A DNA stretch of 64,000 nucleotides from positions 4,101,001 to 4,165,000 of the forward strand of contig NC_092563.1 in NCBI RefSeq assembly GCF_037975245.1, given 5' to 3'. Shown here in pieces: positions 20,159 to 47,343 of the stretch. A program made the translations under genes and the position numbers. The notes beneath the pieces were generated by a model, which did no database searches, had not been told where the DNA came from, and worked only from the letters and a program-made list of their open reading frames with translations. Every line of letters begins with the position of its first letter. Position 1 is the stretch's first letter. This stretch comes from Apostichopus japonicus (Eukaryota > Echinodermata > Holothuroidea > Aspidochirotida > Stichopodidae).

Positions 20159-20429
20159 TTAATTTTTTGTAGCTTCTAAATAGTAACTTTTCATTGGTCC
20201 TACGGTGTGCTCTGGACCTTCGGGAAGGCTCCTCAGGGTCTCGATGTATGCTGCAGGCAGTGCATGTTCCTCTGCACCTATGACGATGACCGACTTATAC
20301 AACACCGAGGGTGGGAATGGAGAATACGGTTGCAAGACCCTGTATGTCCTACATATTACGCTCTCTCCATTCTCTAGGTCCACGGATACATCCACAGGTT
20401 CATAAAATTTCTCTTTGATATGTTCTTGC
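20159..20429 (-). CDS. GGCT-like distal copy, exon 3 (last)
   Basis: The acceptor is tttccag at 20430-20436 and the stop TAA is at 20161-20159. The exon encodes the C-terminal half of the fold, starting at the Arg-Gln-Glu that supplies the catalytic Glu. The split Arg codon agrees with the phase of the preceding exon. Confidence 0.85.
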
Positions 20430-23400
20430 CTGGAAACATAAACATAGAATGTGACTGATGACAAGCTTCATGTAATGATATGATTGTTATATTAGACGTA
20501 TCTGCAAAAAGATGAACAGATGGATACACGGAAAGGATGAGAAACAGATGAATTTAGAATATACCGGTTCACAAAATATAGGCAGAGGTAGTGAGTCATA
20601 GCTGTAATTAGAAAGATAAATCTTCACATTCAATGCTCTCCCCCATCATATGCTTTTGGCACTGCGTGACTCTAGTCAAATTTTAAAGGGTCCAGAGGAA
20701 TTTTATATTCCAATAAAGAACATGCATGTTGTTTCTAGAAATTTTGTACATCTACATATGTGTGTCGTGATACATGATACAAAGAAGTCCATAGTGTACA
20801 TGTGGCAACACACGCAATAAGATAATTGCTATCGTAACCACCCTACCTGCTTTTCCAGAGAGGGGGCCCATTACCTTATAGCAGCAGGGTGAACAGGGAA
20901 TCAACCAAAGAGAGAATGATCTTGTGACACCCAAGTTTTGGCCATTTTACTAGGGTCCTGTCTTAGGTACTGGTAATGGGGAAATATATATTAAATAATA
21001 AAATAAATATAATCATAATAATCAGCAGTTATTTTTACGATGCTTAAGCGACCACAAACGTGGGAGAAACTTGCAAGGGTTTATGGATTACAACTTACAC
21101 ATCGGGTGGCTTCCAATTCAATATTGTAACTCAACTGGAATCTTTTCAACTTAGAAAGTCATTTCAGATGGGAAAACCGTAGATTGCTCTTGGATGAAAA
21201 ACCCACCTTACTATGACCCCAGCCGGGTATCGAACCGTGGACCTCCTGATTGCTAAGCCTCAATGCTTCAAATGCCACTGCTTTTATCCACTCGGCCACA
21301 GCACTGGTATTACATAAACTCTCTAGCTGTTAAAGAATCTCTGAAAATTCTTAAGTAAGCTTTAACTTTGAACCCTTTTTGTGTACTATTTAGCAGCTAC
21401 GAGCAGAGTTTGATGTGAAGTTTGGAAATGGGGTTTGGTGCTGTTCTTTCAGTCTTTTGTTTAATTTGCAGTGATGTTCTGATGGGGTTACCTTAATTCA
21501 CCTCCCTCAGGAGTGGTCAGCTGATACTTTACACCCTCGTCTTTAGGAAGCATGGGACAGTACATGGTTATCTCAGTAGCTATTCTCTGAATATTCATTG
21601 AAAAGAGAATGATTAAGCCAGCTGTTCATCCAAAGGTGATCACATGGATACATGGGCGCATCCCCACCAACTTTTTCAGTGGTGGGGACATGATATACCG
21701 TGTCCCCACCAATTTGTCTAGACCAACGCTGCATTTTCCCCTGTATTGAACTTTGGCGCAGTTTGGTCCAGCATTGTACAAATGACATTCAGCAGTTCTT
21801 ATTTTATTATATTTATCGGCAGTTGTTAAATATAGGACAGAAATCGCATATGCAGCAGTCTATAATTGTTTTCTGGGAGAGGACCCAAGACCAATCGTAT
21901 ACAAAAGTCTACTTGGATTATTTGTCCCCCGATTTTTTTTTTTGGCAGACGCCCATGTATTTCCCCAAACTAAATTTCTAAGCCATTAGATCTAAAACTT
22001 AAGGAGGTTTGGGAGCATCATTGGGTCTGGGAAGTGTTATTCCCGGCGATCTGGGAGGTATATTTGCCAAAAAATTCTTGTGCGCTACGCGCGAACCCAT
22101 GGTTGCGCTCCGCTCAGATAGTATCAGAGAACAGACACACGTCCCCACCATTTATCCAAGACTGATCTGCGCCCATGCATAGATAGGATTTCAAGACATT
22201 GTTGGCTTCCTAACTTGTTGCAATTATTTAATATTAACTGCCCTACCACAATAGGTAAAGGGAAGAACGAACAGTATAGTTATTCTTACCTATCCAGCTT
22301 AGGTAATTCTGTGAGATCTACTCTCCAAACGACACCCCAAGTGGAAGCATTTAGTCGGGATTCAATGGTTGCGCCAACAAACTTTTCGCCTGATGTTTGT
22401 TCTTTGATTGCAAATTCTAGACAGAATTCCTGATAAGATAAAATTTGAAGAGAGATACTCTGTTTTGTAATAACAAGAGGGAAAAAAACAAAACATGAAT
22501 TACGTATGCTTGGGATGATGGGATATTTTGACGTAACAGATAACTATTGTGCATGTAGACATTTCTCTTTACCGTACGATTTCAATAATTTTGTTTCCAC
22601 TTTGGTCATGGGAGGAGTATAGGGAACATTCTTAAAGGGTGTTAAGACTCGCGCACAAAGAAACGTCTCATGCCGGTAATCTGACCTAGTTTCGACTGAG
22701 GTGTAACAGAAGTGTTAAACACCACCATCGATCCCAGAAAATACACACACAGCTTGCTACCGTCGGTAATTGGACACTAGTGTACAGTCACTACATGCAG
22801 CTACGGTCAATACCCATAACACAGTGTACATAGCAGCGATGGACATCTCAGCAGGGAGTTGTTATGGAACTCCCTGATCTCTAGTTAACTTTTTCAGAGC
22901 GCGGCATGCGGCTTGGGGCGAGTCTTCAATGCCTTTAAAGATCATCACCATTGTGCCGAAATATGATAGAAAGTTACATTATGATCGCCCATGCTCAAAT
23001 TTTCAACACACAGCCACTCTATTATGTGTGATCCGTACTGGGCCATTGCTTTGAATCTCTGGGATAATTTACAGGATATCAGCATCTACAAAGGTATTTT
23101 TGAGGACTTTCTAGCGATTTTTAGTATGCTTATGCTATTTGTTACAAGGTTTACAAAGGCTATACATGTGGAGAAATTGGGTGGTTCAACAGGGCCAATA
23201 AGTCTCTGGTGTAGATAGCATGACTTGCTGTAAATAGCAGACGATACTTAATAATTCATCTCATAGTTACACTGGCAGCTGTAATAAGTTGCTGACATAA
23301 CTACTAGCCTCACCTTCAGACAACCTACAGCAACTTTCTGGGACGTTGGACAACTGACGGAAAATCTCTTCGAGTTGATGTTTGATCCATAAGCAAAGTA

Positions 23401-23463
23401 AAGGAAATATCCCTCAGATTGGTGAATTGCTTTAGAAGTGTGGACACCGTCACCGTTAGTAAC
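20159..23463 (-). CDS. GGCT-like gene, distal copy (three exons, 5' end unresolved)
   Basis: This encodes a gamma-glutamylcyclotransferase-fold protein; the family releases 5-oxoproline from gamma-glutamyl amino acids in the cytosol as part of glutathione turnover. Three minus-strand exons join in phase: about 23463-23314, 22429-22290 and 20429-20159. The first gives FLYFAYGSN, the family's substrate-binding loop. The second holds the conserved TWGVVWRVDL and LPKLDR words. The third begins with Gln-Glu, so the catalytic Glu (Glu98 in human GGCT) is kept, and carries ICRTYRV and EEHALPAAYIETL. No in-frame ATG lies in exon 1: an in-frame TAG sits just before the likely acceptor near 23464, and a LINE fragment begins about 30 bp upstream. 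The start codon is therefore either in an unseen exon or lost. Catalytic residues argue for an enzyme; the missing start argues for a decaying copy. Confidence 0.75.
20994..21307 (-). mobile_element. tRNA-derived SINE (family A), intron 2 of distal GGCT-like gene
   Basis: On the minus strand it opens with a tRNA-like head: box A tggccgagtgg (near 21300) and box B ggttcgatacc (near 21230), then a body and an (AATAAT)-rich tail at 20994-21025. The same body lies at 33930-34218. It is a retroposed SINE, not a functional tRNA: the head cannot fold into a complete cloverleaf and is followed directly by the body. Confidence 0.8.
21651..22177. mobile_element. hAT-like miniature element in intron 2 of distal GGCT-like gene
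   Basis: The ends catgggcgca and tgcgcccatg are perfect inverted repeats. The flanks catggata (21643-21650) and catagata (22178-22185) are an 8-bp duplication with one mismatch. 'tccccaccaa' words recur near both ends. An internal block at 22080-22125 is a reversed relative of the 'gcggagcgccaccat' block at 15540 and 29300. No transposase frame remains. Confidence 0.75.
22290..22429 (-). CDS. GGCT-like distal copy, exon 2
   Basis: The acceptor cttatcag precedes GAATTC at 22429; the donor GTAAG follows 22290. The 140-nt exon encodes about 46 codons with the conserved WGVVW core strand and ends two bases into an Arg codon, the same phase as in the other two copies. Confidence 0.85.
22636..22934 (+). 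mobile_element. TTAA-target miniature element, copy 2
   Basis: Exact TTAA flanks lie at 22632-22635 and 22935-22938. The termini agggtgttaagactcg and aggcattgaagactcg (other strand) are imperfect TIRs. The interior matches the copies at 16752-17100 and 34917-35249. It sits in intron 1 of the distal GGCT-like gene. Confidence 0.85.
23314..23463 (-). CDS. GGCT-like distal copy, exon 1 of those visible
   Basis: The donor GTGAGG follows 23314. The exon encodes the FLYFAYGSN loop. Its 5' border is uncertain: the acceptor-like tccgcag ending at 23464 gives an open phase-0 exon but no ATG. Confidence 0.7.
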
Positions 23464-23489: not shown

Positions 23490-24352
23490 GGTAACTTGCA
23501 TGTGGTAAGGACCCTTATTGTAAATGATCTAAACATCCCCTCTCTATCAAATTGCAACTATAGTCAGTACGCTGATGATAAAGCCATTTGGAGCACCAGT
23601 AAAAGTATTCATATGACAGAATTAAATATCAAAAAAGCAATTACACATCTCGAAGACTGGTGCTCGATGTGGAGAATGAAAATAAACCCCTCGAAATCTA
23701 ACCTATTCAATTTCTCCTTTAAAAACTCAAATACCGTAACCATATTCCAAAATCGATCTTTTTAACACCTCAATCACTGCCTCTCCCAATGCAACCTTCC
23801 TCGGTCGGTATCACATTTGATAGCAAATTATCCTTTAACTTACACTGTAATAGAACTGCAGGACGCTGCTGGTCCCACCTTAAAAACATCCAAATCCTCT
23901 CACACAAGTATAATTTCCCTCCGAAAACCACTATCCAAATCTACAAATCCAAAGTGAAACCAATTCTCAGTTACGGGAGCATCTCCTTGTTTACCATTTC
24001 AAATCCCAATAAACAAATTTTAAATAGAATCCACACCACAGCTTTAATATCGACTTGCCCTAAAAATCCCTTCATATATAGCTACTTCTCACGTTTTCAA
24101 GAACAAATAAAAAAATTCTGACAAAGTAGCAACCACTTCCGACCCAAACAATATAGAAACCGCTCCGTCTCCAAATTCCATTTACTTAGAAATTCCTCAG
24201 AAGAAATTTACAGAAGAAAAGATTTCTTTAGTTTGAATAATAAACATATTCAGTTTATTTTCTTCCCAAAATGTGAATGGGAAACATTTTCTCTCCTCTA
24301 CCTATCACCCCCCCCACTCTCACTCCCCCTCCCCCACACCAACCACCCTTAA
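23490..24352 (+). pseudogene. Non-LTR retrotransposon fragment (reverse transcriptase C-terminal part)
   Basis: Two adjacent frames (23496-23765 and 23789-24121) separated by a stop encode a YADD-type palm motif (CNYSQYADDKAIW), then EDWCSMWRMKINPSKS, then the thumb-like GITFDSKLSFNLH and YKSKVKPILSYGS words typical of jockey/I-group LINEs. It is 5' truncated and disrupted, therefore inactive. It inserted between the middle and distal GGCT-like genes, about 30 bp upstream of the distal copy's first visible exon and about 100 bp downstream of the middle copy's stop codon. Confidence 0.85.
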
Positions 24353-24458: not shown

Positions 24459-24738
24459 TTAAGCAAAGCATTCCTGGCTCACAATTTTTTTAGTTTCTTC
24501 AGAATCCACCAACGTAGCATCTACTGCTCCTGTTTGGCCATTATCTTCGATTGCAACTAATTTGGAAATGTAATCTTTCGGAAGTGAGTTCTCCACTGCT
24601 CCGTCCACCATCATCCTCTTATACTTTGTTGAGGGCGTGGCTGGTATGTATTCAGATAACTGGTAGACTCTACAGGATATCAAACCTCCATCTTCTTTCT
24701 CTACTGTAACATCTTTGGCACGATATCCCATTACCTGT
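24459..24738 (-). CDS. GGCT-fold middle copy, exon 3
   Basis: The acceptor gctcttcag precedes 24738; the stop TAA is at 24461-24459. It encodes the C-terminal half, beginning Arg-Gln-Val-Met-Gly-Tyr, where paralogues have Arg-Gln-Glu. Confidence 0.85.
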
Positions 24739-26104
24739 CTGAAGAGCAAACATTCAGCATAAATAGGATATATCCCATGTGGGCAATGTGACATTTTCAT
24801 GGAAAAGAGAAAAAAAAACTCAGTATCTTGTCTACATCATTCAAGTAATTTATGTGTGAATAATGTAAGTTTGGCTAGGTTAACCCCTTCCATTCTTCCA
24901 AAAAGTGGATCACAGTGGGTGGTCTGTGATGTTATATCTGCAATACTCTCTTCAAATATGCTTTACTTTCCATTTATAATCTTCTTTCATACCTGAAATG
25001 GGATACAATTGACTAGCTGTGATGCAAGGTTCTCTGTAGTTGGAATTTTATCAGAAGCTTTTTATGTTGTAGAAATATTATTTTCATCTGTGAATAAGTG
25101 CATTAAATATTAACAATTAAAAGATAAACAAAAACAAATTCATCTGAATTGACACGATTACATCACACTCTCTCTGCTGTTACCAGATTCATTAAAAAAA
25201 AAACCTCCAATTTTTTTTTTTTTTTTTTTACAAAGTGTTAACAAAGATGTGATTTTGAATTATGGATGCAAATAATTTCCAACATTTTGGTATGAAATCT
25301 ACTTCAGCCACCGAAATTGTCCACCGACAAATATCCCTTGAACTGGCTACTGAGCAAAGAAAAGCATAGATGGAAATTTCAGTGAAAAAAATTGATCAAC
25401 TTACAAAATGTTCCAAGCTATACAATTGTCAGTGTGTGACTCACTTTTGGGCGATTTTTCTCTAAAACACATTCAATTGCACATCATTTGAAGGTTAATA
25501 ATTTAAAACAGAAATGTTATAATTAGCATAGATAATTAATTTTAAATAATACCTATCTAATTTCTCTAGGTCAGTCTGGTTCATTTTCCATATCACACCC
25601 CAAACAACACTTCCAGGCTTTTCTTGAATACTAGCCAGACCACCTTTCCAGCAATTCTTTGCAGATGATGATGCCGGAAAATCACCAAAATGGAGCTCAT
25701 AACCCTGAAATTGTAATGAATCGATAAAAAAATACTGCAACAAATACACATTATAGTAACTTCTTTTCCCCCATTGATACCCCTATTGGATGTAAATACT
25801 GACTATAACATTGGAGAAAATACTTGAATTCTTAAAAATCAGTTTTGGAAAATAGTTTCCTGCTGATCTTTCCATACCTTCAGCAATTAGGAGAAATTTT
25901 GAATTTGACCCCCCCCCCCCCTGCCCCCCTACCTTTGAAAACCTGCAGAGGGCACTGACTGCATCAGTTTAATGTCTCCCTGCATGACCAAGCAACTCCA
26001 ACTCAGTCAGAATTCTGCTGCTCAATGAATGAAGCCCCCCAAAAAAATTATGATCAGATTTCTCCTGTGTTTAGAGAACTATATTGACTGCCAATTCGTT
26101 AGTG

Positions 26105-26148
<44 letters not shown>

Positions 26149-26741
26149 TAAACAAGCGAATATTTTTAGGTGAATTTTTAAACTAGGAATGATTAGAACA
26201 ACCAGCAAATTTTTAGTGAATTTTTAAACTAGGAATGATTTGAACAACCAGCAATAAAAAGTAAATAGGGATTAGAATAGCTCCAACCCGTAGCTCGCTA
26301 CGTTTCTATTTAAGTCAGCATTTAAGTATTTTATTATTAGACTCTCTTTATCTTCCTCCTGAACCACAGGGGTTCATTGCCAATAGCAGCACAATGGTCA
26401 ACAAAAGTAGGCAGATTATGTTTGTGCGCAGTACAATGAAGGTTAATAGCACCTTTCTGACCACCAAAAGAGGTCATCAGATGTTCTTTGATTCTATCTT
26501 TAAGCTGTCTATTGGTTTCTCCGACATAAAAGGAATCACAGTCAGGACAGTTTATCCTATATACAACATTGTTGGCATAATCTAACTTATAAGCATCCTT
26601 TAAATTGAACAAAGCAGAAATTTTCTTTTGCAGAAAAATTACCACTCCGAAATATAGCAGTATGTCGTTGTTAAAAATATTCGCTTGTTTATCTTTTATT
26701 TTTTTATCATATATATATATATATATACATATATGAATATA

Positions 26742-26784
<43 letters not shown>

Positions 26785-27116
26785 TTATATATATATATGT
26801 AAATATATCTGATTTTTCTTTGATCATTTTATTACATTTGTGTATCCTTTTTCTTTCTTTTTAATTTATAAGAAGTTTTCTTTAGTCCTGTGAAAAATAC
26901 TTTGACATAGTTACTTAAAGCACTCAATAATGTATATTATTACTGTCACTGTGGCCATCCCAACCCTTATCAAGTCATTATCAATATGATTTTGATTAAA
27001 CTTACCACCAGTTTGCCAATTCCAACTTTCAAGGCATTTTTATTATGCAGATGAATATTGGAAAGGTGATTTCCATAACCAAAGTAGTGAAAACATTCTT
27101 CCAGTTCTGTTGCCAT
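24459..27116 (-). CDS. GGCT-fold protein, middle copy; predicted pseudoenzyme (180 aa)
   Basis: Three minus-strand exons, 27116-27006, 25704-25553 and 24738-24459, join in phase (111+152+280 nt) to a 180-residue protein of normal family length (human GGCT has 188). The start ATG is followed by ATELEECFHYFGYGNHL, so the family's YGSN loop reads YGNH (residues 14-17). Exon 2 keeps WGVIWKMNQTDLEKLD. At the exon 2/3 border the usual Asp-x-Gln-Glu becomes Asp-Arg-Gln-Val, with about four residues missing after it, so the catalytic Glu is absent. The rest (SCRVYQLSEY, SLPKDYISKLVAIED) is well kept. The frame is open and splice sites are consensus, so the protein is probably made, but cyclotransferase activity is unlikely. 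Binding or regulatory roles are conceivable. A mis-set exon 3 acceptor is the main alternative, but no other AG restores the Glu. Confidence 0.85.
25553..25704 (-). CDS. GGCT-fold middle copy, exon 2
   Basis: The acceptor aatttcag precedes 25704 and the donor GTATTA follows 25553. It encodes GYELHFGDF at the start and the conserved VWGVIWKMN strand; it ends in phase 2 within an Arg codon. Confidence 0.85.
26108..26145. repeat. (TA)n microsatellite, left flank of Penelope fragment
   Basis: An uninterrupted TA run ends exactly where the 23-bp inverted repeat of the neighbouring retroelement fragment begins. Confidence 0.95.
26146..26694 (-). mobile_element. Penelope-like element fragment with 23-bp inverted ends
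   Basis: The ends 26146-26168 and 26672-26694 are perfect 23-bp inverted repeats (agataaacaagcgaat...). Both sides abut TA microsatellite, as if inserted into (TA)n. The minus frame 26645-26337 encodes the C-terminal GIY-YIG nuclease part of a Penelope-like element: VVYRINCPDCDSFYVGETNR with the CxxC pair, then LKDRIKEHL. A 46-bp direct repeat ('tgaatttttaaactaggaat') lies at 26169-26254. The reverse transcriptase is missing and the coding frame stops early, so it is a dead, truncated copy in intron 1 of the middle GGCT-fold gene. Confidence 0.85.
26337..26645 (-). pseudogene. GIY-YIG endonuclease remnant of Penelope-like retroelement
   Basis: About 100 codons are open. The visible motif is a YxI-C-x2-C-x3-FYVGET block with conserved Arg and Glu-His downstream, matching Penelope-type GIY-YIG domains. 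Only the endonuclease end survives. Confidence 0.85.
26711..26818. repeat. (TA)n / ATATATG microsatellite
   Basis: An imperfect TA-rich array on the right side of the Penelope fragment. Confidence 0.95.
27006..27116 (-). CDS. GGCT-fold middle copy, exon 1 with start codon
   Basis: ATG at 27116-27114, 37 codons, donor GTAAGT after 27006. It encodes the altered substrate loop YGNH. An exon border may lie just upstream because 'caactcagaaatggcaac' gives no closer alternative start. Confidence 0.85.
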
Positions 27117-33283: not shown

Positions 33284-33542
33284 TTAGTCTTTCTTTGCCT
33301 CAGCCATTTTCACCATTGTTGGGGTCAATGTCTTTGTGTCCCCATTGTCTTGAATTGCCATCAATTTCTGAATATAATAATCTGGTAATCCATGCTCCCT
33401 AGCGCCCTCTATACAAACTTGTTTATATGCAGGCATAGGCGCCATCACAGTGAGGAGATCTATTTGGTAGGTGCGGCACAGGAGTGATGTCCCATCGGTC
33501 ATCTCGATGGTCACTTCCTTAGGAAGGTAAACATCTTCCTGG
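33284..33542 (-). CDS. GGCT: GGCT proximal copy, exon 3 (last)
   Basis: The acceptor ggttcag precedes 33542, and the stop TAA is at 33286-33284. It carries the catalytic Gln-Glu at its beginning and the C-terminal beta strands. Confidence 0.88.
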
Positions 33543-36500: not shown

Positions 36501-39500
36501 TCCTTTAACAGTATGGCTGCTCAAAAAGTTTGAAGTTGACATAACAACTAGTTATTTTCTAGAGCTATACTGAAATAGCACCAAACTTAGCCATTGTGAT
36601 GAGGGTCCTTTCTTTGTTCTGATTGGGTGTTGTAGTAAGAAATGTTGTTGAAATATCACAGCATGACAGCTCATTGGTTAATACTTTACATGCTCAGCCA
36701 AAGAGTTCCCAATTCTATTTGACATCAGACACCAACAAAGATCTTTCTTGTAGAGCCATTTAGTTAAATTATTAATATCTATTTGATTTACTGATGAAAA
36801 CTTGATTAAACAGGAATTCTCAGTGATTTCAGAGACAGCGGCTCGTGAAGTTTTTGCAGAACTAGAGAGGACCGATATGATAGCGCCCTCTGTGAATTCA
36901 AGACATCACTGAATTTCCACATTCAAGGTCATTTCTTAGCAGCCACCTGAATTCAAAGTTTTACCTAGTACTTCATAAAACAGATTAATTTTTCAACATA
37001 CAGCCACTTTTAGGATATCCTGTTTAGAAGTTAAACACCAATATGACAGAACTACTAGATTCAAACTTAGTTTAATGTAAGCTCACATCATGTTGTAAAA
37101 AATAGGGATGGCGTGATAAAATTCTGGGTAAAATTTAAATGTTCTGGTGTTCAAGTCATTACCCAGTGTTTTCTCATTATCAGTTGTAAACTTATTCTGT
37201 GGTGAAAGAGTTGCTGGCTATAAGAGTTCATTTGGGATGTCAATTACATTATAGTGAAATAAGAGAATAATTTTGCTACAATCTAGTGTAGGGTGGCCAG
37301 AAACTGGTCCCCATCCGGCACGTTTCTATGTTCATTTTCAAGTCTTAACATTGTGAAATAGGTAACCTGCAGTAGTTCAAGACTTAGTAAACGATTTCAT
37401 CTTATTAAATTATCTTTTCTAATTTGTTGAAGAGTCCAGCCCTGTCGAGGGAGATTGGGGAGGCTGCAGCATGGGTTCCATCAGAGGGTCTAACAGTTAA
37501 TTAATGTGAAGCAGGGAGCGATATTAACAGTTATGGAATTGTTTGTGCTGTGGTGAATGTGTAGGTTAATGTGTAAGCTAATGTGTAGGCTAATGTGAAG
37601 GCTAATGTGTAGGCTAATGTATAGATTTCGCGTACATTCATTTATGGATCCAACACAGTGAAGCAGTTTGAAAATGTGACACTGTAGGACTCCATAAACA
37701 TTGCAACATCAATTGCTTCGTTATGCTTGAAATTCTGCAAACTGTGCATTGAATTGCTGGACTGTCCAGCTTAATTGGTCAGTCTAGCCTAATCCTGGAC
37801 ATCTGGCCACCCCATAGCAACCACTCAATCACACCATGTGTCACCGTGACATGAAAGTGTATGATTGTCATTAAGGCCAAACTCTTCGGGGCTGTTCATT
37901 AAGTTTCATTAAGATTCTTTCTCCTAAAAGGTGCGAGTTACACCGACTGATGGTTTTTAGCATTGAGGCTACTTACCGGTCCAGGTTTGAGACAGCTGCT
38001 AGATCTATTTTCCAAACAACACCCCAGACATTTACTCCCTTTTTCTCTACTATAGTGGCCGTTCCCCCAGTCCATAAAGGGTCGGATTTTCGGCTTGATA
38101 AAGTGCCAAATGCTAAGTCATAATCCTATGGACGGAAAAACATAGAGACCATTCATTCTTGGAAACTTTTTTCCAATAAGAAGGTAACATCGAAAGGTAG
38201 TCCTCAATAAAACCAGAAAGCCACTTGGCTTTGCGATTCCTTGCCACATAATTTTCTCAAAGTTATAGAGCAAGTGAGAATAAGTTTTGTCTAAGAATTA
38301 AGTGAGAACCATAAAAGATCAGATATTTTTATCTCGTATTTGTAGCACTCACTTGTGGGCATCAATCAAGTAATTCACTGGTAAGGATTTTTACTGTACT
38401 ATAGAATATTTATTCCAAATTGTTTCAATAAACCAGAAAGAACAGTCTGTCAAGGTGAAATATAGACACATATATCTGCACACATGGACAATAATTTGTA
38501 CCAATTGGAGCTAGAAAATCACCTCTGCCACCAACCATCCCTTTAATAATTGTTAAATTAAATGAATTGAGAATATACATGATAGTTACACATGTGAAAT
38601 ATTTCACAACTTACTGGCAAAGCCAAGTTCATCTAGTATAAATAACAGAGAATAAGGCTAATTTTTGAGACCTTTTAAGATAACCTGCTGACTACTTGAG
38701 CCAATTTTGAAGCCATTTGAGATAACCTATTGACCCCTTAAAGCTCAGGGAATGTGTAAGGGATATTAAGGGCCACTTGAGTGTGTTCAAAGACCCAACA
38801 CAAGAGTATCAACTCTTTGAAACATATTTATTGTCCTGGGTGACTTTATGTACATGTACTTTTCATGAACAGTTGAGATTTTGTTATAATGAGCCCTTTA
38901 CAAAACTGAACCGAACTGATATTGGCCAAACTATGTTCACCAAAAAGGGAACTATAGCATTAGCATGGTAGAACTCATAGATTAAACCCAGCTTTAATTT
39001 GAAGTTATAGCATGTCTACAAGGATTACATACTTTGATACATGTAGACCTCATGTGACCTTTGACCTCTACCAACTACTCACCAAGTTGGATCTACATAG
39101 TAAGTATGAAGTTTCACAAAGATGTACTTTTTTAGTTATCATGTTTACAAGGTTTTTACAGACTTTACTAATTATGTTGACTGCAAATGAGCTTTGACCT
39201 CCCCAATTTCAATAGGGTTCTTGTACTCATCAAGCTAGATCTACATACTTCATATGAAGTTCAACATAGATGTACTTTTTGATATCGTGTTTACAAAGTA
39301 TTCAGATTTTGACCTCTGTTGACCCCAAATGACCTTTGAACTTCACAGAAAAGAACAGGATTCTTTTACTTAATGAGACGGATCAGTGTATCAAGTATAA
39401 AGTAAATCCACCATGAACTTTTTCAGTTATGATGTTTACAAGCAAATGTCACATGCACACACACACACCTTTCACATCCGGCAATGAAGAAAAATATATA

Positions 39501-39791
39501 GTTGAGATGGTGAATTCCAGCAATATTTGAACTTAGTAACAACATATATGGAAGAGTGCCTCAATGTGTACTGTACAGCCCAGACGACACAAAAAACGTC
39601 ACCTCTACTCAAAATCTGTAAAGGTAAAAAAGAAGATTAACACCACAACAAGCTTTCAGATGCAATACCTTCAATATTCCTTTCCCCACTGCAACAGCTG
39701 ATGGATTGTTCAGATGAATACGGGTGCTGTCTAAATTGCTGCCATAACTAAAGTAGAGGAAATAACCCTCCTCTTTATTGAACCACGACAT
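33284..39791 (-). CDS. GGCT: Gamma-glutamylcyclotransferase-like, proximal copy, complete (176 aa)
   Basis: Three minus-strand coding exons, 39791-39669, 38125-37977 and 33542-33284 (123+149+259 nt), give 176 residues plus stop, close to human GGCT length. Exon 1 reads MSWFNKEEGYFLYFSYGSN then LDSTRIHLNNPSAVAVG, with the intact YGSN loop at residues 16-19. Exon 2 holds NVWGVVWKIDL and SNLD. Exon 3 begins Gln-Glu (Glu93, equivalent to the catalytic Glu98), then LLCRTYQ and EHGLPDYYIQKLMAI. The family catalyses cyclisation of gamma-glutamyl amino acids to 5-oxoproline. The ATG lies 4 nt inside an exon whose acceptor is tttgtcttccag, so a 5'UTR exon exists upstream. A donor-like ACAG|GTAAGC directly follows the stop, suggesting a 3'UTR intron. 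It is the most likely active member of the cluster; intron 2 (about 4.4 kb) contains the nested repeat array. Confidence 0.9.
33930..34218 (-). mobile_element. tRNA-derived SINE (family A), second copy
   Basis: It has the same body as 20994-21307, with head tggctgagtagataaa (box A) and an (ATT)n tail at 33936-33959. The box B region is deleted. It lies next to the start of the 627-bp tandem array. Confidence 0.75.
34511..34910. mobile_element. Non-autonomous hAT element, 400 bp, perfect TSD
   Basis: The ends cagggttgtccaacct and aggttggacaaccctg are perfect inverted repeats; the 8-bp duplication ctttaaat is exact (34503-34510 and 34911-34918). The interior includes GC-rich 'gcgggccgga' words unlike the surrounding AT-rich DNA. 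No transposase. Confidence 0.92.
34917..35249 (+). mobile_element. TTAA-target miniature element, copy 3
   Basis: TTAA flanks at 34913-34916 and 35250-35253. The interior matches copies at 16752 and 22636. The sibling tandem units keep the empty site (a single TTAA in 'ttcctttaacagtatgg' at about 35875-35890 and 36502-36517), which proves both the insertion and the duplication. Confidence 0.92.
36808..37976. other. Intron 2 of proximal GGCT, 5' part
   Basis: No repeat family named. A short array of 'gtNtaggctaatgtN' words occurs at about 37555-37625. Confidence 0.5.
37977..38125 (-). CDS. GGCT: GGCT proximal copy, exon 2
   Basis: The acceptor tccatag precedes 38125 and the donor GTAAGT follows 37977. 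149 nt, ending phase 2 in an Arg codon. Holds the VWGVVWKID strand. Confidence 0.88.
39000..39490 (+). repeat. Tandem repeat with TGACCT words, intron 1 of proximal GGCT
   Basis: About three units of roughly 110-140 bp share 'tttgacctc', 'caagNtNgatctacata', 'agtatgaagtt' and 'aagatgtactttttNagtta' with 'gtttacaag'. A perfect DR1 arrangement, TGACCT-T-TGACCT, is at 39055-39067. A lone unit is at 29880-30090. Confidence 0.7.
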
Positions 39792-46172: not shown

Positions 46173-46392
46173 ATGATTAAAATCTTACGCATGTTATATG
46201 TACCTGCATATATTAACACAAATGAAAAAGATATTTATTGAAGATAAAAGTGTGTATATATGTAATTAATTTTAGAATTCAACCTGATACACCATGCTGG
46301 CAGACCGTCATTTATATTAATAAATCATAAATAAATATTTACATATGTATAAAGAGAACATTGTCATCCCATTTTTATTTTTAGAACCGGTC

Positions 46393-47343
46393 ATGGAGTC
46401 ATTCAGCCAGGTTGTATACAACCAGCGTGGCGTAATATTTGCCACTCTCTCTTCCGTCATGTGGGCTATGAACGGACTGGGGGCCAAAATTATCACAAAG
46501 GCCGTTTCTCCGTGGATCATCGCTTATGCATGTTGTCTCTCATATCTGCTCTTCATCCCTTGGCTGAAATGGGAGAACATGACAAGATATGTCATGTTTG
46601 ACAATATCTTTATGATCCTCGCTGGACTTTGTGACGTGATCAGCCTTTATCTTGCCACAGTTGCTTTTTCGTTGACTTCCGTAGGAAATGCCAGTGCTAT
46701 CATTTTCAGCAAACCTGTATTTTGTGCTCTCCTGTCCAGTTTTGTCTTAAAGGAGAAGTTTGCAGCCTGTGATTGCTTTATAGTGATTGTAAATGTCATC
46801 GGTGTTCTTTTGATTACAAACCCATTTAGCATATGTTTGGACAATGCGGGATTTCGTCGTGATAGCTACCATGTGTTAGGTTCGATCTCTGCTCTAGGTG
46901 CCGCCGTTTCTGGTTCCGTCGCCTTCATTTCTGTGCGGAAATTAGTTTACAGAGACACGTACGACCCATTCTTAGTTCTCCTTGCCAAATGCATCATCGG
47001 TTTCGTAACTTTTAGTGTAGTCTTAAGTTTCGAATTTACATCACGTGATCATATGCAGAATCCGTCCGATTGGGGTTGCCTACTTGCAGTCTGTTTCACA
47101 GGGGTGTGCGCATGCGTTCTTGTATACGCAGCACTTCAGACTGAGACTGCAAGCACGGTGTGTGCAATATCGACAGCGCAAGTAGTTATATCATACTTAC
47201 TTCAAGTGGTTTTCACCGATGACGTCATAGATTTTATATCTGTTTTAGGTGCTGTCCTTATTTTATCTGCTCCACTCTGGTATGCCGTACAAGGTATTCT
47301 TCAAAGATCAGATGATGAGGTCATCGATCCTATACAGTATTAA
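46393..47343 (+). CDS. SLC35G1-like drug/metabolite transporter (EamA family), 316 aa
   Basis: This encodes a polytopic membrane protein of the drug/metabolite transporter superfamily, most like vertebrate SLC35G proteins; the substrate is not known from sequence. About ten hydrophobic segments are visible, in two EamA-type halves: roughly residues 13-32, 41-57, 69-90, 97-117, 126-143 and then 158-180, 190-210, 226-245, 250-270, 275-298. The family-typical word GNASAIIFSKPVFCALLSS with FVLKEKF closes the first half. I choose ATG 46393 (MESFSQ) over the in-frame ATG 46345 because 'tttttatttttag' at 46372-46384 looks like a splice acceptor, leaving a 5'UTR exon upstream. Stop TAA at 47341-47343. 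The coding region is in one exon. Length fits the family (about 310-365). Charged C-tail SDDEVIDP. Confidence 0.88.
   Translation: MESFSQVVYNQRGVIFATLSSVMWAMNGLGAKIITKAVSPWIIAYACCLSYLLFIPWLKWENMTRYVMFDNIFMILAGLCDVISLYLATVAFSLTSVGNASAIIFSKPVFCALLSSFVLKEKFAACDCFIVIVNVIGVLLITNPFSICLDNAGFRRDSYHVLGSISALGAAVSGSVAFISVRKLVYRDTYDPFLVLLAKCIIGFVTFSVVLSFEFTSRDHMQNPSDWGCLLAVCFTGVCACVLVYAALQTETASTVCAISTAQVVISYLLQVVFTDDVIDFISVLGAVLILSAPLWYAVQGILQRSDDEVIDPIQY

Follow-up and report, generated by a model that had tools for sequence, protein, structure and literature searches.

A probable gamma-glutamylcyclotransferase pseudoenzyme encoded in a cluster of paralogues in the sea cucumber Apostichopus japonicus

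Does a gamma-glutamylcyclotransferase (GGCT) gene that has lost the residues of its chemistry, and still reads through from start to stop, encode an enzyme, a decaying relic or a protein with other work? The question is raised by gene B, which lies on the minus strand of a 64,000-nucleotide stretch of the Apostichopus japonicus genome (hereafter the window; contig NC_092563.1, positions 4,101,001 to 4,165,000), between two same-strand paralogues, gene C upstream and gene A downstream. In this family the YGSN motif is the substrate loop, and both YGSN and Glu98 (human numbering) are required for 5-oxoproline formation.

Gene B consists of three exons bounded by GT donors and AG acceptors (Table 1). 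Joined in phases 0 and 2, the exons give 543 bp, that is, 180 residues and a stop codon with the frame intact, which bears out the gene structure proposed in the first-pass annotation. Its own ATG is flanked by G at -3 and +4, and the three-exon layout and its phases are the same in A, B and C, in keeping with descent from GGCT. Within intron 1, we also observed a fragment (26340-26640, minus strand) with a GIY-YIG domain barely above the cut-off and TA microsatellites on both sides. At least 39 other nearly full-length copies of it (91-95%) were present among the matches listed, and it may derive from a Penelope-like element.

Table 1. Positions within the window of the exons and altered codons of gene B and of the exons of its two neighbours.
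Feature	Position	Strand	Remarks
Gene B exon 1	27006..27116	-	ATG to GTG/gtaagt; residues 1-37, with YGNH; one place in genome search
Gene B Tyr-Gly-Asn-His codons (family YGSN)	27066..27077	-	S and N kept in 37/37 other rows of alignment A5
Gene B exon 2	25553..25704	-	residues 38-88, last codon split
Gene B exon 3	24459..24738	-	includes stop codon
Gene B GTA = Val90 at the place of the catalytic Glu	24732..24734	-	GAA in genes C and A
Gene C exon 1 (YGSN)	39669..39791	-	upstream paralogue
Gene C exon 2	37977..38125	-	
Gene C exon 3 (Gln-Glu kept, short loop as in B)	33284..33542	-	
Gene A first recognised exon (YGSN)	23314..23463	-	no in-frame ATG; acceptor-like CAG ahead
Gene A exon 2	22290..22429	-	W..GG motif lost (FVG)
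Gene A exon 3 (Gln-Glu kept, full-length loop)	20159..20429	-	

Gene B is a GGCT by descent (gamma-glutamylcyclotransferase, AIG2_2/GGACT superfamily). Its product matched human GGCT chains with phmmer E values of 7e-33 to 1e-32 and scored 67.1 bits against Pfam AIG2_2 (cut-off 27) and 28.8 against GGACT (cut-off 22.8). Identity to human GGCT amounted to 68/160 positions for B, 68/162 for C and 55/163 for A. An AlphaFold model built from a 38-row alignment (A5) reached a pLDDT of 85.5 and a pTM of 0.80, superseding a weak first model from three rows (pLDDT 66), and the predicted fold superimposed on human GGCT (2rbh) with a Z score of 24.5 and an rmsd of 2.1 over 159 residues. In a tree, A, B and C grouped against human (95/92) with B as the first branch (90/77); A forms a long branch and the bootstrap values are unsettled, and the branching order was left out of the argument.

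The losses of B include the catalytic signatures. As the first-pass annotation had read, the substrate loop is YGNH instead of YGSN and the catalytic Glu is replaced at the border of exons 2 and 3, where B has Leu-Asp-Arg-Gln-Val; the Val codon, GTA, is one base away from the GAA of C and A, and the gene models of both neighbours retain YGSN and Gln-Glu. In A5, all 37 other rows have the Ser and Asn of YGSN as well as the catalytic Glu; these three residues are lost in B only, which has Val90 or a gap in the Glu column. An alternative alignment of the loop (YG-N-H, that is, Ser deleted and Asn kept) leaves the Ser lost either way. Twenty-two columns, start Met included, are near-invariant, with one residue shared by 90% or more of the other rows. 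A and C each match 21 of them and B matches 17, the five losses of B being L10H, A13G, S16N, N17H and the Glu. B retains the invariant residues Y11, F12, Y14, G15, G73, L86, Y93, Y113, Y127 and G134, including the pocket tyrosines Y93, Y113 and Y127 (human Tyr105, Tyr125 and Tyr139) and the glycine G15 (human Gly23). Furthermore, an Arg common to human GGCT, A and C (human R30) is missing in B, together with a two-residue deletion in the same loop. When the four proteins were compared, B kept 35 of the 43 columns in which human, A and C agree, and the eight losses include S24, N25, R30 and E98 (human numbers). The same count gave 35/40 for C, 35/43 for human and 35/52 for A; therefore, B is not generally decayed.

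A deletion of about four residues at the place of the Glu, which had also been ascribed to B, is present but not peculiar to it. C has the same gap after its Glu (LDRQEDVY, compared with human LDEQEGVKSGMY), and in one homologue from bacteria (L050, LDTEETGY) the loop is just as short and the Glu is retained. Since C and this homologue share the short loop, only the change from Glu to Val is specific to B, and we rejected the gap as a sign of inactivity.

We also looked for an alternative exon 3 border that would restore the Glu. Among the 59 frame-keeping donor/acceptor pairs listed for exons 2 and 3 (donors 60-259 bases from the exon 2 start), none gives Gln-Glu after Leu-Asp-Arg: in 52 pairs the donor cuts the Leu-Asp segment out, and none of the seven that keep Leu-Asp-Arg continues with Gln-Glu. 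An acceptor at 24831 used with the standard donor yields Gln-Asp and 31 extra residues. We rejected it as the main form of the gene, as the preceding gaatgatgtag has no pyrimidine tract, and its use in a variant is possible.

To place these losses in the wider family, we assembled prokaryotic homologues. Scans with the animal alignment confirmed no relatives among 16 pattern matches in the genome_contigs collection and none among 58 in viral_contigs. Plasmid searches by tblastn returned four records with C and seven with B, five of which were taken into the sample. A scan of genome_contigs with a bacterial alignment contributed the best 80 of 543 relatives, giving 85 loci with those from plasmids. 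Motif-based extraction took 79 of the 85 and dropped six from Pseudonocardia, all of which have YGSN and LDRWEG. The 35 prokaryotic rows of A5 were chosen by hand among the higher-ranking profile matches, with close copies and some others omitted. In this sample of the best 80 of 543 relatives plus plasmid loci, YGSN is present in 84 of 85 loci, the exception being YGSC (L070), and the Glu is likewise found in 84 of 85 (77 by the motif L[DN]..E, one, L010, by eye and the six with LDRWEG). Conservation is partly built into these counts, as the search pattern MLYFAYGS occurs in 77 of the 79 proteins first extracted; the Asn that follows it and the Glu lie outside the pattern. A locus from Verrucomicrobia (L064:601-1056) reads LDRRRG and seems to be without the catalytic Glu, with YGSN kept. 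This is possibly an independent loss, to judge from the sequence, and it indicates that loss of the Glu is not unique to B in the wider family.

Taken together, we consider it probable that B encodes a GGCT pseudoenzyme and arose by tandem duplication, keeping fold, pocket and frame, losing catalysis and staying under constraint for work that is now non-catalytic. Of the pseudoenzyme reading offered by the first-pass annotation, the description of a GGCT-fold paralogue without the Glu and YGSN, with the frame and most of the family signature kept, is upheld. The course of events would be as follows. Tandem duplication of a gamma-glutamylcyclotransferase gene would have produced B. In this copy, Val would then have taken the place of the acid/base Glu, and Asn-His that of Ser-Asn in the substrate loop, while the frame stayed open and the GGCT fold was retained along with the tyrosines and the glycine that form part of the gamma-glutamyl pocket. 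With the Glu missing and the Ser-Asn loop altered, B would not be expected to form 5-oxoproline at a normal rate. As fold and tyrosines are kept, the simplest remaining roles would be to hold a gamma-glutamyl ligand without turnover, or to pair with the product of C and modulate it.

The best surviving alternative, which we regard as unlikely, is that B is a young pseudogene in which selection ended recently, so that catalytic residues were among the first random losses and the frame is not yet broken. The residues lost in B are indeed invariant in the other rows, and under neutrality an intact gene is fairly likely at 0.02-0.05 substitutions per site (0.34-0.067, at 0.05 indels per substitution). 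However, the joint chance of an intact gene and at least five of 21 near-invariant codons lost is at most 0.0039 at any age with 0.05 indels per substitution, and at most 0.0015 with 0.10; these figures are model results rather than a test of selection, from a model that ignores unequal mutation rates and uses conserved columns partly biased by the MLYFAYGS pattern. A neutral chance of at most about 0.4% makes recent decay unlikely, and the retention in B of every splice site and of 17 of the 22 near-invariant columns also argues against it. Synonymous changes between B and C are saturated (ps 0.81; dN 0.54), and therefore dN/dS cannot date the catalytic loss. The match to human GGCT differs by exon. 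Exon 3 of B is as near to human as that of its sister genes (32/79 matching positions, compared with 27/79 in C and 26/82 in A), and exon 2 matches at 22/48, 22/48 and 15/46 positions in B, C and A, respectively. Conversely, exon 1, which carries the altered loop, matches at 14/33 positions in B and 19/35 in C (14/35 in A), which makes it the weak part of B and counts in favour of decay; judged from these matches, relaxed constraint on this exon is possible. On balance, we infer that the catalytic residues were lost while the protein stayed under constraint.

It is also conceivable, albeit quite improbable, that B has remained an enzyme but works on another substrate or by another chemistry, with the Glu replaced in function by the loop residue His17 or by an acidic residue located elsewhere. 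The new His in the substrate loop and the retention of the three pocket tyrosines and the glycine would suit such an enzyme. In GGCT, Glu98 is the acid/base, at a site that is also lined with conserved tyrosines (partly after PMC7022552). In human ChaC2, Glu 74 and Glu 83 can both occupy the site (PMC7022552), which shows that the Glu can be supplied from a second position. On the other hand, B is changed in YGSN as well as at the Glu. Moreover, in prostate cancer cells, the metabolic effects of over-expressed GGCT were reversed by the E98A form of the human protein (PMC13039682), which again speaks against continued catalysis.

We hold it very doubtful that the exons of B are spliced solely as alternatives into transcripts that also contain exons of C or A. 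Such transcripts could be assembled, as A, B and C lie on the same strand and share their phases (0 at the end of each first exon, 2 at the end of each second), and gene A, which has no in-frame start of its own, would need an upstream exon. However, B has its own ATG and C a full exon set, and any transcript with exon 3 of B would still be without the Glu. A sequencing or assembly error is scarcely credible, since S16N, N17H, the loss of R30 with the two-residue deletion and the change from Glu to Val are separate, frame-keeping differences in two exons for which one chance error cannot account.

The pseudoenzyme was originally described as sitting beside active paralogues, a claim that is safe for C at most. 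C is a credible, complete gene with a product of 176 residues. A reads as 186 residues without a start codon, with a stop codon immediately upstream of its YGSN exon in the same frame, and has lost W..GG; a retroelement fragment lies next to it. Gene A may either use an upstream exon or be itself failing. The fragment, located between B and A (23511-24098, plus strand), encodes part of an RVT_1 reverse transcriptase, starts about 47 bases upstream of gene A and belongs to a repeated element with at least 39 further copies at 85-93% identity (40 scored candidates).

Searches of the animal's own genome with the exon peptides and PF13772 revealed no GGCT copies elsewhere, within the limits of assembly gaps and missed matches, and PF06094 gave three matches (one on contig C16, two on C4), none of them in the window. 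Elsewhere in the window, a 339-codon open frame (46324-47343, plus strand) resembles by eye an EamA/SLC35G-type transporter with several membrane spans. The assembly also contains a mitochondrial contig (C35, 16,099 bases) whose COX1 is read best under the echinoderm/flatworm code (table 9), with 835.5 bits against solved cytochrome oxidases compared with 805.2 under table 4 and 798.5 under table 5, in agreement with an echinoderm host. Further COX1 pieces (contig C29:14745-31219) appear to be mitochondrial copies that are either nuclear or mis-assembled.

If B is a pseudoenzyme, a more specific role can be put forward tentatively, namely that of a natural gamma-glutamyl sensor or GGCT regulator, which would keep its pocket ligand uncyclised or form mixed dimers with C and thereby act as a switch of the gamma-glutamyl cycle. 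In a bolder form of this proposal, the loop His may bring new chemistry. Should B be expressed and bind gamma-glutamyl compounds or the C protein, it would be a natural counterpart of the E98 mutants and could also help to find out whether the functions of GGCT proteins extend beyond catalysis. Pseudoenzymes next to live paralogues are a known kind; a thin literature search of one open-access library found no GGCT-family pseudoenzyme beside a live paralogue.

Among known systems, human GGCT (C7orf24; PDB 2pn7, 2i5t, 3cry, 2rbh) is close to B in fold (Z 24.5, 42.5% identity) and in its pocket residues Tyr105, Tyr125, Tyr139 and Gly23, and differs in having YGSN, R30, E98 and a loop four residues longer, whereas B has YGNH, no Arg and Val. 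The human E98A (2rbh) and E98Q (3cry) chains carry Ala and Gln at this place and were solved in the GGCT fold, indicating that GGCT proteins without the Glu still fold. B resembles a natural version of these chains, although they keep YGSN and the loop of B is changed too. Part 2 of the Paulinella chromatophore transit peptide (9i08, 9i09), a targeting peptide by its PDB title, has a GGCT-like fold (Z 7.6 and 9.5 to the B model) and is presumably a non-enzymatic use of it; it is distant from B (13-21% identity) and comes from another cell context. GGACT (3jub, 3juc; Z about 11) and ChaC2 (6k95, 6ky0, 6ky1; Z 11.5-14.3) also match the B model with the GGCT fold, more weakly, but unlike B they are enzymes with other substrates, and ChaC2 has two alternative Glu residues (PMC7022552). 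Finally, the prozyme of T. brucei, from another enzyme family, is a dead paralogue kept with a live one, as B probably is; prozyme and its partner assemble into a functional complex (PMC5201418), whereas the pairing of B with C is hypothetical.
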